Below, piece by piece: positions 3,001 through 37,732 of a stretch of 47,508 nt of DNA (position 1 is its first letter; each line of letters starts with the position of its first letter). The notes under the pieces were generated by a model. The model searched no databases. It was not told the origin of the DNA and saw only the letters and a list, made by a program, of their open reading frames with translations. The stretch is from assembly GCA_025355955.1 (NCBI GenBank), contig JANXYP010000242.1, positions 1 through 47,508 of the forward strand. The letters run 5' to 3'. A program made the translations under genes and the position numbers. The stretch comes from Chloroflexota bacterium. Its GTDB lineage: Bacteria; Chloroflexota; Chloroflexia; QHBQ01.

Positions 3001-3414
3001 GTACATGGCAAAGGCGGAGATTATGAACGAGGCGAGGATAGCAAGATTGTATGCGGTTTCCGGCCCCCAGATGCTTGTTATCGGAGTGGACAAAAGGGTA
3101 ATCAACTTGGTATCAGCCTGAAGCGCCAGGCGGGTGCCGAAAGGATAGAATATCACATCGGTGGCGAATGGTGAAGCGTGCAAATCCTGTAGAGCGTAGC
3201 GCATCCACCAGAAGTTCCAGACGAACTGGTACTCATCTATGCCGCCGAACAGAAGATAGCGGCTGAACAAGTTGCCCGCCAGCGGCCAGGTCATCACCAC
3301 GCTAATCAGCGTATAGATTAGCAGAACGCCACTATCCACCACTCGCGATCGCGGCACACTTTTTCGCCCTTTACTGCTCGACGGGGCATCGCCTTCTGTG
3401 CTGGTTATATTCAT
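51..3414 (-). pseudogene. GT-C-like polytopic membrane protein, apparently split by two frameshifts (ORFs 739-3414, 467-937, 51-566)
   Basis: 739..3414 has many TM helices; its tail becomes low-quality after ...RAYADLAVSPVPTKT while frame 467..937 continues plausibly (RADQNRSMRWLHGNSSIYLSGINASYPLTLSVYTGG...), and frame 51..566 carries the last TM helices (IYLVAIVLLAFSFFPL...). Confidence 0.6.
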
Positions 3415-5051
3415 GGTGCAAGCAGCGCGTTGGCGCTGGGAAACTCCTTCAGCGTATTGCCAATGAAGCGAAAGTAGTAGCTAGGCATATCGCCAGGCTG
3501 GGTCAGCGCGGCAGCGAAGCGGCTGGCATCGTAGCCCGGCCCACCACTTGCGTATACCTGTAGGCTGGGGTCGGCGTAGGCTAGTTGCACTGCCGTGACC
3601 GCGCCAGTGTTCAGGATGCTGGCGCGGCGATAGCTGAGTGGCGGGTCGGCGATGAAGAAGCGACTGCCCGGCGGCACACTGGGGTGGTCAGCCTTTAGCT
3701 GGGTCAGAAAGCTGCGCGTGACCTCACCCGCCACCCGCCACTCGTCGTTATGCGCGAGCGTCGCCAGGCTGCCATAGCCGATCAGCAGGATGGTGATCAT
3801 AGCGGCTACGTAAGTTTTGAGTTTTGAGTTTTGAGTTTTGAGTTCAGTGCGGCGGATTTTGGAATTGGAGTATGCGTCGCGCACTGCGGACCCACCCCCA
3901 GCCCCTCCCGGTGGGAGGGGAACAGTACTTCGCAATACCTTGCCGATTATCGCGGCCAGCAGCAGGGCGAAGCCAACGCTGGGCAGGTAGGCATAGCGGG
4001 TGGCAAGGTCGTTGGCGGGGATGTTGACGAAGGGAGCCACGCTCAGGAACATCCAGGCCAGCCCAAACCAGGCCAGCTTGCCCGCCCAGATTGCCAGCGC
4101 CATTGCCGCGAACAGGAAGCCGCCCAGCAAGGCGAATGCGACCCCGCCTTGTATCCCCGCGATGATGGGAAGACCGAGCAGCATCCCCAGATATCCCGCC
4201 AGGTTGTCTACAATGCTGCCTCCACCGCTGCCCCCATAGCCGAGCATTAGCAGGTGATTGGCATTGAGCCAGAGGCGCAGCAGTAGATAACCGCCGCCCA
4301 GCAGCATGAACGGCGCGTGCCGTCGCAGCTTGGCTCCAACAAATATCGCAAAATCAATTCTGTAGGGGCGGGATTTATCCCGCCCTGTTATGATTCCAGG
4401 TTGCGGTCCGTAGGGGCGGGATTTATCCCGCCCTGGTGCAATGCCCGGCTGCGGAAAGAACAACAGGTCAGCTAGAAGCAGCAGCGCGGGTGCAGTCAAT
4501 CCAATCTCTTTGGCGAGGATGGCAAGCAGCAGCGCGATCAAAGCCAGCGCATACCAGCGGCGGCGCTGCGTCTGCATATACAACACGAAGGCGGTGACGC
4601 AAGCGAGATACATCACCGTCGCCAGCGCATCGAAGCGCCCGTCAATCCAGGTGATGCTGCCGGGATGTGCTGGCTGCACCACGAAGATTAGGGCGGCCAG
4701 TGCTGCAACCAGCGACCCGCGCAGGCGGTAGGCCAGCAGCCAGACTAGCGCAACGCAGGCCAGATTGATGAGCAGGTTGGTCAGCCGCCACAGCGCGGGG
4801 TTGGCCCCCCACAACTGATAATCGGCAACGAAACTGAGCCAGGTGAGTGGTCGATAGAAGCCATTACCCCGCGCCAGATTGAAGAAATTGAGGATTTGCG
4901 GCCATTCCTTCTTCACTACAAAGTTGAAATCATCTGCCGCCCAGTAGTAGCCGAGCGTGGGCAGGTAGAGCAGCAAGGTGAGCGCCAGCGCTGCTCCCAG
5001 CCCCAGCCATGCCCATCGCCACTCCTGTCTCGCTGCTACTTGCGCCTCGAT
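3411..5051 (-). CDS. GT-C-like polytopic membrane protein; track start 4976 is probably too short
   Basis: Multiple TM helices; ATGA overlap with the downstream gene. In-frame upstream codons encode IEAQVAARQEWRWAWLGLGAALALTLLLYLPTLGYYW, a complete first TM segment. Contains repeat-derived peptides. Confidence 0.65.
   Translation of the reverse strand: MEAQVAARQEWRWAWLGLGAALALTLLLYLPTLGYYWAADDFNFVVKKEWPQILNFFNLARGNGFYRPLTWLSFVADYQLWGANPALWRLTNLLINLACVALVWLLAYRLRGSLVAALAALIFVVQPAHPGSITWIDGRFDALATVMYLACVTAFVLYMQTQRRRWYALALIALLLAILAKEIGLTAPALLLLADLLFFPQPGIAPGRDKSRPYGPQPGIITGRDKSRPYRIDFAIFVGAKLRRHAPFMLLGGGYLLLRLWLNANHLLMLGYGGSGGGSIVDNLAGYLGMLLGLPIIAGIQGGVAFALLGGFLFAAMALAIWAGKLAWFGLAWMFLSVAPFVNIPANDLATRYAYLPSVGFALLLAAIIGKVLRSTVPLPPGGAGGGSAVRDAYSNSKIRRTELKTQNSKLKTYVAAMITILLIGYGSLATLAHNDEWRVAGEVTRSFLTQLKADHPSVPPGSRFFIADPPLSYRRASILNTGAVTAVQLAYADPSLQVYASGGPGYDASRFAAALTQPGDMPSYYFRFIGNTLKEFPSANALLAP
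4362..4435. repeat. two tandem palindromic repeats inside a CDS
   Basis: GTAGGGGCGGGATTTATCCCGCCCTG at 4362-4387 and 4410-4435, 48 bp apart. Confidence 0.9.
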
Positions 5052-6243: not shown

Positions 6244-6270
6244 CCGCGACTAGCGTCGAACAATCTAAAT

Positions 6271-6306
6271 GCAAAAAGCCCCCAACTCCCACTGGGGGCT
6301 TTTTGC
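6271..6306 (+). terminator. rho-independent terminator (symmetric)
   Basis: Perfect 13-bp stem GCAAAAAGCCCCC / GGGGGCTTTTTGC with a 10-nt loop. Confidence 0.85.
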
Positions 6307-6328
6307 CCCGCCGCGTGGAGATCAAGCT

Positions 6329-7234
6329 GTGAACACTCAAAACTCAAAACTCATAACTCAAAACTTCACTACGCTCGGCATCGTCGGCAGCGGCACGATG
6401 GGCGGGGGCATCGCCCAGATTGCCGCGCAACACGGCTTCAGCGTCATCCTCTACGACATCAACACGGAGATTGTAACCCGCTCAGTTGGTCGCTTGCAGG
6501 CGATGCTGGACAAGCTGGCGGCCAAGGGCAAGTTGAGCGGCGATGATGTAGCCGCTACCATCAGCCGCATCCGCGCCACCGCCACACTTGAAGAGCTGGC
6601 CGCCGCCGATTTTATCATCGAAGCCGCGCCGGAGGACATAACCCTCAAGCGTGACATCTTTTCGCGGCTCGATGCTGCCTGCCCACCCACCACTATCCTC
6701 GCTAGCAACACCTCGTCGCTATCCATCACCATCCTGGGGGGCGCAACCAGGCGGCCCGCGCAGGTGGTGGGGATGCACTTCTTCAATCCCGTGCCGCTGA
6801 TGGGGCTGGTCGAGGTCATCGTCGGGCAGTATACAGATGAGGAGACCGTCAACTCCACAGTGGCGCTGGCCCAGCAGTTGGGCAAAACCGCAGTGCGTTG
6901 CAACGATACCCCCGGCTTCATCGTCAACCGCGTGGCCCGCAACTTCTATGGCGAGGCGCTGCGTATCGTGGGCGAGCAGGGCGCGACCGTGGAGCAGATC
7001 GACCAGTTGGCCGAGCAGGAGGCAGGCTTTCGCATGGGGCCGTTCCGCCTGATGGATTTGATCGGCATTGACATCAACTTCGCGGTGACGCAATCGGTTT
7101 TCGCCGCCTACTTTGGCGAACCGCGCTATCGTCCCCACCCCATCCAGCAGCGCATGGTGGAGGCGGGCGCGCTTGGGCGCAAGGCAGGGCGCGGTTTCTA
7201 CGATTATAGCAGCGACAAGGAGGCAGCCAAGTGA
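6329..7234 (+). CDS. 3-hydroxyacyl-CoA dehydrogenase
   Basis: LGIVGSGTMGGGIAQIAAQHGFSVILYD Rossmann motif and 3HCDH C-terminal domain. The ATG at 6269 lies at the edge of the terminator hairpin; in-frame GTG 6329 is preferred. Confidence 0.85.
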   Translation: MNTQNSKLITQNFTTLGIVGSGTMGGGIAQIAAQHGFSVILYDINTEIVTRSVGRLQAMLDKLAAKGKLSGDDVAATISRIRATATLEELAAADFIIEAAPEDITLKRDIFSRLDAACPPTTILASNTSSLSITILGGATRRPAQVVGMHFFNPVPLMGLVEVIVGQYTDEETVNSTVALAQQLGKTAVRCNDTPGFIVNRVARNFYGEALRIVGEQGATVEQIDQLAEQEAGFRMGPFRLMDLIGIDINFAVTQSVFAAYFGEPRYRPHPIQQRMVEAGALGRKAGRGFYDYSSDKEAAK

Positions 7235-35500: not shown

Positions 35501-37732
35501 TTACATGGATTCCGGTGCGGCGATGCCCAGCACGGTGAGGCCGTTGCGTAGCGTTTGCTTCGCGGCATGGGTCAGGGCCAGGCGGGCCTGCGTCAGCGCA
35601 GGCGTTTCCGCTTTGATGATTGGACAATTATGGTAGAAATTGTTGAACGCATCGGCCAGGTCGAACAGGTAGATGCAGATGTTGACTGGTCGATACAGCT
35701 CCGCCGCTTTCGCGATCTCGTCAGGGTAGCGCCCGATCAGCTCCAGCAGCGCGGTCTCCTCGCCAGTCAGGATGGTGAAGTCGTAGTCGGACCCTCTCCC
35801 AGCCTCCCCCACCGGGGGAGGAGTCAGGTTAGTCTCCCCCGTTGAGTATGTAGGGGCGAACGGTTGTTCGCCCTGGGCAGCCACCGCCGTTGAGTATGTA
35901 GGGGCGAACCGTTCGCCCTGGGCAGCTTTCTCCAGCACGCGGCAGGCGCGGGCGTGGGCATACTGGATGTAGGGTGCGCTCTGGCCCTCGAAGTTTAGCG
36001 CGGTGTCCCAATCGAAGACGATCACCTTGTTCAAATCCTTGTTCAGCATCTCGAAGCGCAGCGCACCGAAGGCGACCTGCTCGGCAATGTCGCGTTTGGC
36101 GATGTCGTCGAGTTCGGGGTTCTTCTCATTGATGATACTCAGCGCCTTATCCACCGCGCCAGCGGCAATGTCCTCATAAAACAGCACGTTGCCCTTGCGC
36201 GACGACATCGCCCCCCCCTTCATTGTGACCATCTCGTAGCCCAGGTGGGTGAAGCGGTCGACGTTAGGGAAGCCGAGCAGCTCAATCAGCTTGAACACCT
36301 GCTCGAAGTAGAGGCTCTGGCGTACATCCACACAATAAACTAGCCGATCAGCGTGGAAGTCGGCTAGCTTGACGCGAGCGAGGGCGATATCCTTGCTGCC
36401 ATAGAGGCTGGTGCCGTCGCTGCGAAGCAGCACAATGGTGCGCCACACCTCTTTCGGCGAACCGTCGGGGTTCTTCGCGTTCAGTTGCCTGGCATACTTG
36501 GCCGCCAGTTCAGGGTTCTTGCGTAGCTGCTCGTCAATCTTGACGAAGACGGTGCCGGTAGGTCGCTCGTCGGTGGCAATGCCGCGCTTGATTAGCTCCT
36601 CGGTCAGCGTTACCCCTTCTACCTCTACCTCGCTCTCGAAGAACCATTGGTCGAACTGCACGTTAAGCTGTTGATAGATGCGGTAAAACTCCTCCATGCT
36701 CCACGCTTTGGTGCGTTGCCAGAGCGCGATCAAGTCGGGGTCGCGAGCCTCCCACTGCCGCCACAACGCAGCCTGCTCTGCCTTCCAGCCGTCTACCTGC
36801 GGCCACCAGTCCATATGCGCGTCCAGCCTGGCGTACTCCGCCCGATCCTCTGTGTCAACATCAGACGTTGGCAACCACTCGCCCAGCCGCGCCCACGCCC
36901 CAAGTAGGAGGTCGTGATCGGCGAACGCGCCGTAGTCAGGCCTATCCTTGCTGGGTAGCGAACTGATCAAATAGCTGGCATCAGGGTGGTGGGCGCTTGC
37001 CTCTTGCAGATAGTCGAATGCCGCTGCCTTCGCACCAGCATGGTCACGCACCAGTCGCTGGCTGAGTGCCAGCACCTCATTCTTGTATTCGGTGCGGGCG
37101 TTACCCTCGACGTAGACGCGGTTCAGCCAGATGCCGCGCTGGTGGGGCGGCTCTTCGTCCTTGTGGAAGCGCAGATAGCACCACAGGCTTTTAATCACGT
37201 GTGCGCCCATGTCGCCAATATAATTCGCGCCAATCACCTCGAAACCAGATGCGCGCAGGATATTGACCACGCTGCTGCCCAGGCAGGCATTGCGTAGGTG
37301 GCCGACATGGAACGCCTTGTGCGTGTTCGGCTGCGAGAACTCCACCATGATGCGCTCGTTCCTGGTGGGGCCGTTGCCGTAATAATCACCCTCATTGTCT
37401 ACTGCCGCGATTACCTGATTGGCGAACCACGAGGTGTTCAGATAGACGTTGATGTAGCCATTCATCGCCTCGACCCGTGCCACTTCGCGGCGGGTGGGCA
37501 ACGCGGCGACAATGCGCTCGGCTAGCTGCGCCGGATTGGTCGCCGCCTGCTTCGCAAGCTGGAAGCTGACGCTGCAGGCATAGCCCCATTTACCTGCGAA
37601 CTGGCCGGACAGCGGCTTCAATTCGATATTCTCTGGGGCGTTTAGCCCAATCGCGCTGATTGCTGTTATTATATCGCTGGCAAGCTCACTGCGGATGTCG
37701 TTGTACATATCGCTCAATCCCCAATCAGTCAA
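35501..37732 (-). CDS. argS: arginyl-tRNA synthetase with repeat-derived insertion
   Basis: FSQPNTHKAFHVGHLRNACLG, MKGGAMSSRKGNVLFYEDI, DALRA-type C-terminal domain (ALLELIGRYPDEIAKAAELYRPVNICIYLFDLADAFNNFYHNCPI). Confidence 0.93.
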   Translation of the reverse strand: MTDWGLSDMYNDIRSELASDIITAISAIGLNAPENIELKPLSGQFAGKWGYACSVSFQLAKQAATNPAQLAERIVAALPTRREVARVEAMNGYINVYLNTSWFANQVIAAVDNEGDYYGNGPTRNERIMVEFSQPNTHKAFHVGHLRNACLGSSVVNILRASGFEVIGANYIGDMGAHVIKSLWCYLRFHKDEEPPHQRGIWLNRVYVEGNARTEYKNEVLALSQRLVRDHAGAKAAAFDYLQEASAHHPDASYLISSLPSKDRPDYGAFADHDLLLGAWARLGEWLPTSDVDTEDRAEYARLDAHMDWWPQVDGWKAEQAALWRQWEARDPDLIALWQRTKAWSMEEFYRIYQQLNVQFDQWFFESEVEVEGVTLTEELIKRGIATDERPTGTVFVKIDEQLRKNPELAAKYARQLNAKNPDGSPKEVWRTIVLLRSDGTSLYGSKDIALARVKLADFHADRLVYCVDVRQSLYFEQVFKLIELLGFPNVDRFTHLGYEMVTMKGGAMSSRKGNVLFYEDIAAGAVDKALSIINEKNPELDDIAKRDIAEQVAFGALRFEMLNKDLNKVIVFDWDTALNFEGQSAPYIQYAHARACRVLEKAAQGERFAPTYSTAVAAQGEQPFAPTYSTGETNLTPPPVGEAGRGSDYDFTILTGEETALLELIGRYPDEIAKAAELYRPVNICIYLFDLADAFNNFYHNCPIIKAETPALTQARLALTHAAKQTLRNGLTVLGIAAPESM
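35791..35934. repeat. repeat cluster inside argS
   Basis: GTTGAGTATGTAGGGGCGAAC..GTTCGCCCTGGGCAG twice, 48 bp apart, plus CCTCCCCCACCGGGGGAGG. Confidence 0.9.

Follow-up and report, generated by a model that had tools for sequence, protein, structure and literature searches.

Tandem copies of a GTAG-tagged palindromic repeat form an in-frame insert in the arginyl-tRNA synthetase gene of a Chloroflexota bacterium

GTAG-tagged repetitive extragenic palindromes (REPs) are palindromes of 20-40 bp with a terminal GTAG, which occur in high copy number and mostly between genes (Di Nocera, De Gregorio and Rocco 2013, PMC3733652). They have been found in several phyla including Chloroflexi, with GTAG-23 of T. 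roseum as a named example, and some species with GTAG REPs have no RAYT (PMC3733652). Intragenic copies are known from many species and some are translated in frame, most often in O. terrae; in-frame copies also lie in tRNA synthetases of X. oryzae, E. litoralis, and S. alaskensis (PMC3733652). Rickettsia palindromic elements (RPEs), as cited in the same paper, are in-frame palindromic repeats in likely functional open reading frames (ORFs), including a tRNA pseudouridine synthase gene, and those of R. conorii end in CGTC (PMC3733652). REPINs with RAYT transposases (PMC3116915, PMC8049555) are short REP palindromes multiplied in one genome. Here we describe the argS gene for arginyl-tRNA synthetase (ArgRS) of a Chloroflexota bacterium, located in a DNA stretch of 47,508 nucleotides (contig JANXYP010000242.1 of assembly GCA_025355955.1; hereafter the window), which carries an in-frame insert built from a GTAG-tagged palindrome and a second hairpin repeat. 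A literature search on palindromes in ArgRS returned nothing relevant.

The insert is a repeat-derived, lineage-specific, and frame-preserving insertion. Specifically, a GTAG-tagged palindrome unit occurs in it as two direct copies (48 and 45 bp), accompanied by one CTCCCCC-GGGGGAG hairpin; by sequence match, essentially the whole insert is derived from repeats. The features of the locus are as follows.

35501-37732, minus strand: argS (arginyl-tRNA synthetase), 743 aa from the called TTG start; TIGR00456, PF00750, PF05746, PF03485.
35787-35926 (140 bp), minus strand: repeat-derived insert, residues ~603-649, net +39 residues relative to the best relatives (alignment with 28 class relatives; codon table).
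35882-35926, minus strand: repeat unit 1, 45 bp, palindrome loop 3 bp shorter, encoding AAQGERFAPTYSTAV (codon table).
35898-35918, plus strand: GTAG-tagged palindrome in unit 1, GTAGGGGCGAACCGTTCGCCC; its 12-base half has 542 genome copies.
35834-35881, minus strand: repeat unit 2, 48 bp, encoding AAQGEQPFAPTYSTGE (codon table).
35850-35873, plus strand: GTAG-tagged palindrome in unit 2, GTAGGGGCGAACGGTTGTTCGCCC, with one mismatch to the genome consensus GTAGGGGCGAACCGTTGTTCGCCC.
35787-35833, minus strand: second repeat family, a CTCCCCC-GGGGGAG hairpin with a GGCTGGGAGAGGGT tail, encoding (T)NLTPPPVGEAGRGS (consensus of copies).
35803-35821: core palindrome of the second repeat family, CCTCCCCCACCGGGGGAGG.
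35504-35773, minus strand: conserved rest of the DALR anticodon-binding domain beyond the insert, residues 654-743, PF05746 positions 28-117, ~50% identity to class relatives.

The palindromes GTAGGGGCGAACGGTTGTTCGCCC and GTAGGGGCGAACCGTTCGCCC start 48 bp apart and are both near the genome consensus. The unit reads GCTGCCCAGGGCGAAC(AAC)NGTTCGCCCCTACATACTCAACGG..., and its two argS copies differ by a 3-bp deletion and a few substitutions. An earlier note on this DNA had claimed that argS contains a cluster of at least three repeat-derived peptides, with two palindromes at 48-bp spacing and a further palindrome, and this is borne out, all of them belonging to multi-copy families. Its description of the insertions as nested was dropped, as the repeats stand side by side, with one tandemly duplicated palindrome unit beside a hairpin of another family.

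Comparison with relatives delimits the insert. ArgRS reads EKAAQGERFAPTYSTAVAAQGEQPFAPTYSTGETNLTPPPVGEAGRGSDYDF across it with an open frame, and the gap from the conserved helix QYAHARACRILEK to the conserved block that follows spans 50 residues versus ~11-16 in the 28 aligned class relatives, none of which shares the insertion, a net gain of ~39 residues. The best relative, which is 52% identical and came from a whole-genome search, has 18 bases opposite 45 residues here, and the solved ArgRS structures span the same gap from residue 523 to 536 (P. horikoshii, 2zue) and from 505 to 514 (yeast, 1bs2). Since the DALR_1 match resumes beyond the insert at profile position 28 of 117, the site most likely corresponds to the loop that follows the first DALR helix. 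The insert sits directly past the conserved QYAHARACRVLEK helix and would lie within the anticodon-binding domain, in its first inter-helix loop, rather than ahead of it as first proposed. An AlphaFold2 model from a 3-sequence alignment (predicted local distance difference test score 48.8) shows the insert mostly as coil with the lowest scores, and is too poor for use. The variable length of this site among relatives could suggest that the segment is a linker, either ancestral or of independent origin, whose likeness to the repeats is due to chance or convergence. Such an origin, which the earlier note had itself named as counting against its claim, is very improbable: the 48-bp unit, the two palindromes, and the hairpin all belong to many-copy families with 0 control matches, no aligned relative has a segment of comparable length, and the repeats are almost absent from relatives.

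The enzyme itself appears intact. The TIGR00456 argS equivalog profile scores 425.6 bits against a cut-off of 261.65, and PF00750, PF05746, and PF03485 are all above cut-off, with N-terminal, catalytic, and DALR domains present, which assigns the protein to the arginyl-tRNA synthetases. The TTG start is as called and provisional; the earliest ATG codon is residue 9. The frame stays open, as the earlier note stated, and the enzyme keeps its conserved motifs and the C-terminal domain; coding-like codon usage persists beyond the insert. A redundant or decaying gene, whose work is done by another argS absent from the assembly, is very unlikely. The assembly (5.15 Mb in 420 contigs) is 84% complete, which leaves room for such a copy, but a PF00750 search of it matches one locus, the window argS, and finds no second argS, the other observation that the earlier note had set against its claim. 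In addition, the gene has no stops or frameshifts, and keeps its ~50% identity to relatives and its codon usage past the insert. A metagenome assembly artefact, namely a repeat wrongly joined within argS, is extremely improbable, even though repeats are typical break points in an assembly of 420 contigs: the frame survives three repeat copies, at least 11 further in-frame cases lie on different contigs, and unique coding sequence flanks the 140-bp insert on both sides in a 47.5 kb contig.

The GTAG element is highly multiplied in this genome. Matches to GTAGGGGCGAAC with at most one mismatch number 8 in the window versus 0.21 expected from shuffles, and the exact 12-mer has 542 copies in the genome, while its reversed control has 0. 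The genome consensus, TCT-GTAGGGGCGAACCGTTGTTCGCCC-TG, is a 24 bp palindrome with conserved TCT and TG flanks, and it bears an unpaired GTAG at a single end (5' GTAG and 3' GCCCTG, with no matching CTAC in most copies). The longer form GTAGGGGCGAAC-N4-GTTCGCCC, or GTAGGGGCGAACNNNNGTTCGCCC as a pattern, occurs in 434 copies here versus 0-1 in each of 157 other class genomes and 0-3 in each other genome of a 400-genome phylum sample; by these counts the burst is lineage-specific. The location is mainly extragenic: open frame and codon score classed about 7 of the 106 loci sampled as intragenic, in a sample that was not fully random. The second hairpin family has the consensus CTCCCCCACCGGGGGAGGCTGGGAGAGGGT, and its core CTCCCCCNNCGGGGGAG gives 81 strand matches in the genome (control 0), some of which are self-complementary sites counted on both strands; the argS segment of this family matches a further site in the genome with 89% identity over 53 bp. 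Moreover, at least three different longer hairpins in the sampled stretches (L078-L111 and others), TACCAATTAGC...GCTAATTGGTA, GCGTCACGTTCTTGC...GCAAGAACGTGACGC, and GTGTCTGAAAAG...TTTTCAGACAC, have the GTAG core at their apex, with examples at L085:5868, L092:2014, and L086:2304. Paired intact arms of the first hairpin type give 42 strand matches, 40 with the core pattern and 2 with a degenerate core, and a search for hairpins of the three types without a GTAG core found none, every one holding an exact or degenerate core.

These properties place the element closest to the GTAG REPs, with which it shares palindrome size, terminal GTAG, copy number, mostly intergenic location, and some in-frame copies (PMC3733652). 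It differs in that its core is also the apex of three longer hairpins, and a RAYT was not found in the present genome. The T. roseum elements, described in that paper as clustered in blocks at few loci, were compared with it by description rather than by consensus (PMC3733652). The element would resemble RPEs in its in-frame insertion into ORFs for likely functional proteins, but it ends in GTAG instead of CGTC, lacks the RPE sequence, and belongs to another phylum; it works like an RPE yet is not one. With REPINs it has in common short REP palindromes multiplied within a single genome. REPINs are inverted pairs moved by a RAYT, whereas the arrays here are direct and a Y1 transposase was not found in the genome. 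The argS case is a Chloroflexota instance of the phenomenon already described in Rickettsia and for intragenic GTAG REPs, and the repeat looks like tolerated parasitic DNA.

The argS insert has counterparts elsewhere in the genome. We scanned stretches around repeat copies (~380 kb first, with more added later) for ORFs that contain copies in frame and show coding signal on either side of them, and the GTAG element is read in frame in at least 11 ORFs besides argS. These include MnmG with three GEQRFAPT units and MobA with two, both at 48 bp spacing, and a 1069-aa membrane protein with six units; further carriers are a DUF1420-like protein, a DUF2298 protein, a STAND-type NTPase, a subtilase, and a predicted multi-spanning membrane protein. 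The RANNGSP frame is used in a LivM-LivG ORF, an ornithine cyclodeaminase-glycosyltransferase ORF, and another membrane protein. Every intragenic copy is read antisense to GTAG. All three antisense frames are open and hydrophilic (QGEQRFAPT, RANNGSPLQ, PGRTTVRPYR), while the sense frames contain a stop or Cys, Trp, or hydrophobic residues.

We propose, with a probability of about 0.88, that a lineage-specific burst of GTAG REP elements took place and that some in-frame insertions were tolerated in disordered loops. The element would have multiplied in the lineage to more than 500 copies, and one copy would have inserted into argS, in the part coding for a loop of variable length, before or after the adjoining copy of the second hairpin. 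A head-to-tail duplication of the REP unit and its flank (48 bp) would have followed, for which replication slippage or unequal recombination is the probable mechanism, and one copy would later have undergone a 3-bp in-frame deletion. ArgRS would thereby have gained a flexible loop of ~45 residues rich in Gly, Pro, Ala, and Thr and kept its function, because the antisense peptides are open and hydrophilic and the total length is a multiple of three, while selection would have purged frame-breaking insertions. We infer the order of events, the disorder, the neutrality, and the retained ArgRS activity; the argS insert itself is most likely neutral.

The distribution of copies is consistent with this tolerance model. 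The share of intragenic loci is far under the usual bacterial coding share, which suggests that most insertions into genes were removed. Unit spacing is divisible by 3 in all 5 intragenic arrays versus 6 of 23 others (Fisher p = 0.005), a contrast favoured to some extent by the definition of the intragenic class through an open frame along the array. Likewise, the GE(Q/P)xFAPT frame is used in 9 of the 12 intragenic cases including argS, in a tally partly biased by one search that used the GEQRFAPT peptide as query. Antisense reading and spacing in threes are both compatible with insertions being tolerated in disordered loops while selection preserves the frame. Besides these two biases, several points weigh against the model. 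The nearest relatives compared are of class level, so the absence of the insert is seen at that distance; an ArgRS protein scan of the contigs of other genomes returned two distant archaeal relatives only and no sister taxon. In the 84%-complete genome, the PF01797 model found no RAYT/IS200-type Y1 transposase, while it matches 5 of 14 control genomes. Expression and retained activity of ArgRS with the insert are predicted from sequence. Even so, the claim that a housekeeping enzyme accepted repeat insertions is supported, as 28 of 28 class relatives are without the segment and the repeats are dispersed by hundreds.

The recurrence of one frame could alternatively mean that the repeat peptide was functionally recruited in ArgRS, MnmG, and MobA as a selected linker or interaction motif, and tRNA is indeed a common substrate of ArgRS and MnmG. 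We consider this very unlikely. Apart from the repeat, the carriers (subtilase, membrane proteins, NTPase) are unrelated to one another, they differ in the place and number of the copies and in the spacers, and the source of the peptide is a DNA repeat mostly outside genes; hydrophilicity and stop-free frames largely explain the frame choice, and the peptide query behind part of the tally favours the same frame.

Under the model of tolerated insertions, argS provides a clear example of selfish-type palindromic DNA that is predicted to be translated in a conserved, normally essential enzyme with no spare copy detected in the assembly. The phenomenon is genome-wide and not a single accident, it extends the Rickettsia and REP observations to another Chloroflexota lineage, and it displays the expected signature of tolerated insertions, namely frame-preserving unit lengths, hydrophilic frames, and variable loops. 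A bolder idea, which is tentative and less likely than not, is that a REP family with stop-free hydrophilic antisense frames is now a recurrent protein-extending element, whose tandem duplication in multiples of three would build disordered loops of varying length in conserved enzymes (ArgRS, MnmG, MobA) across the proteome of one lineage. Loop length may then vary among strains, and strains of the species would allow direct measurement of loop growth.

Several carriers contain additional repeats. MnmG (L091:5204-7504, minus strand, contig C48) has ~77 extra residues comprising an NPSPTEGGW hairpin peptide, the three 48-bp GEQRFAPT units, and an NSKLKTQNSKL repeat, and this stretch aligns to nothing in class relatives with a full MnmG match, which have just a few residues there. 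A DUF2298 membrane protein (L199:590-7387, minus strand) has one loop with ~160 residues of mixed repeat peptides. In ArgRS, MnmG, the subtilase, and the DUF2298 protein, REP copies have a copy of the second hairpin family as a neighbour, which suggests that certain loops serve as sinks for repeats. A single ORF (L090:8702-10630, minus strand) encodes both LivM and LivG, with a linker between them that draws on at least three families of repeats (RANNDSP, WDKSRPY, KTQNSKLKT), and repeats may have fused the two genes. Similarly, an NPN-dependent ornithine cyclodeaminase and a GT4 glycosyltransferase share one ORF (L163:671-3469, plus strand), whose junction holds the hairpin peptide APPPAGEVGRGSE and which has four RANNGSPLLTA-like units (33 bp) near its end. 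In the window, the ORF at 3411-4976 (minus strand) contains the peptide GRDKSRPY twice in tandem (GPQPGIAPGRDKSRPYGPQPGIITGRDKSRPY) together with LKTQNSKLKT, both from further in-frame repeat families. Finally, the N-terminal 30 aa of the 3-hydroxyacyl-CoA dehydrogenase-like ORF at 6269-7234 (plus strand), as called, include an NTQNSKLITQN repeat, and its true start may lie downstream of the call.
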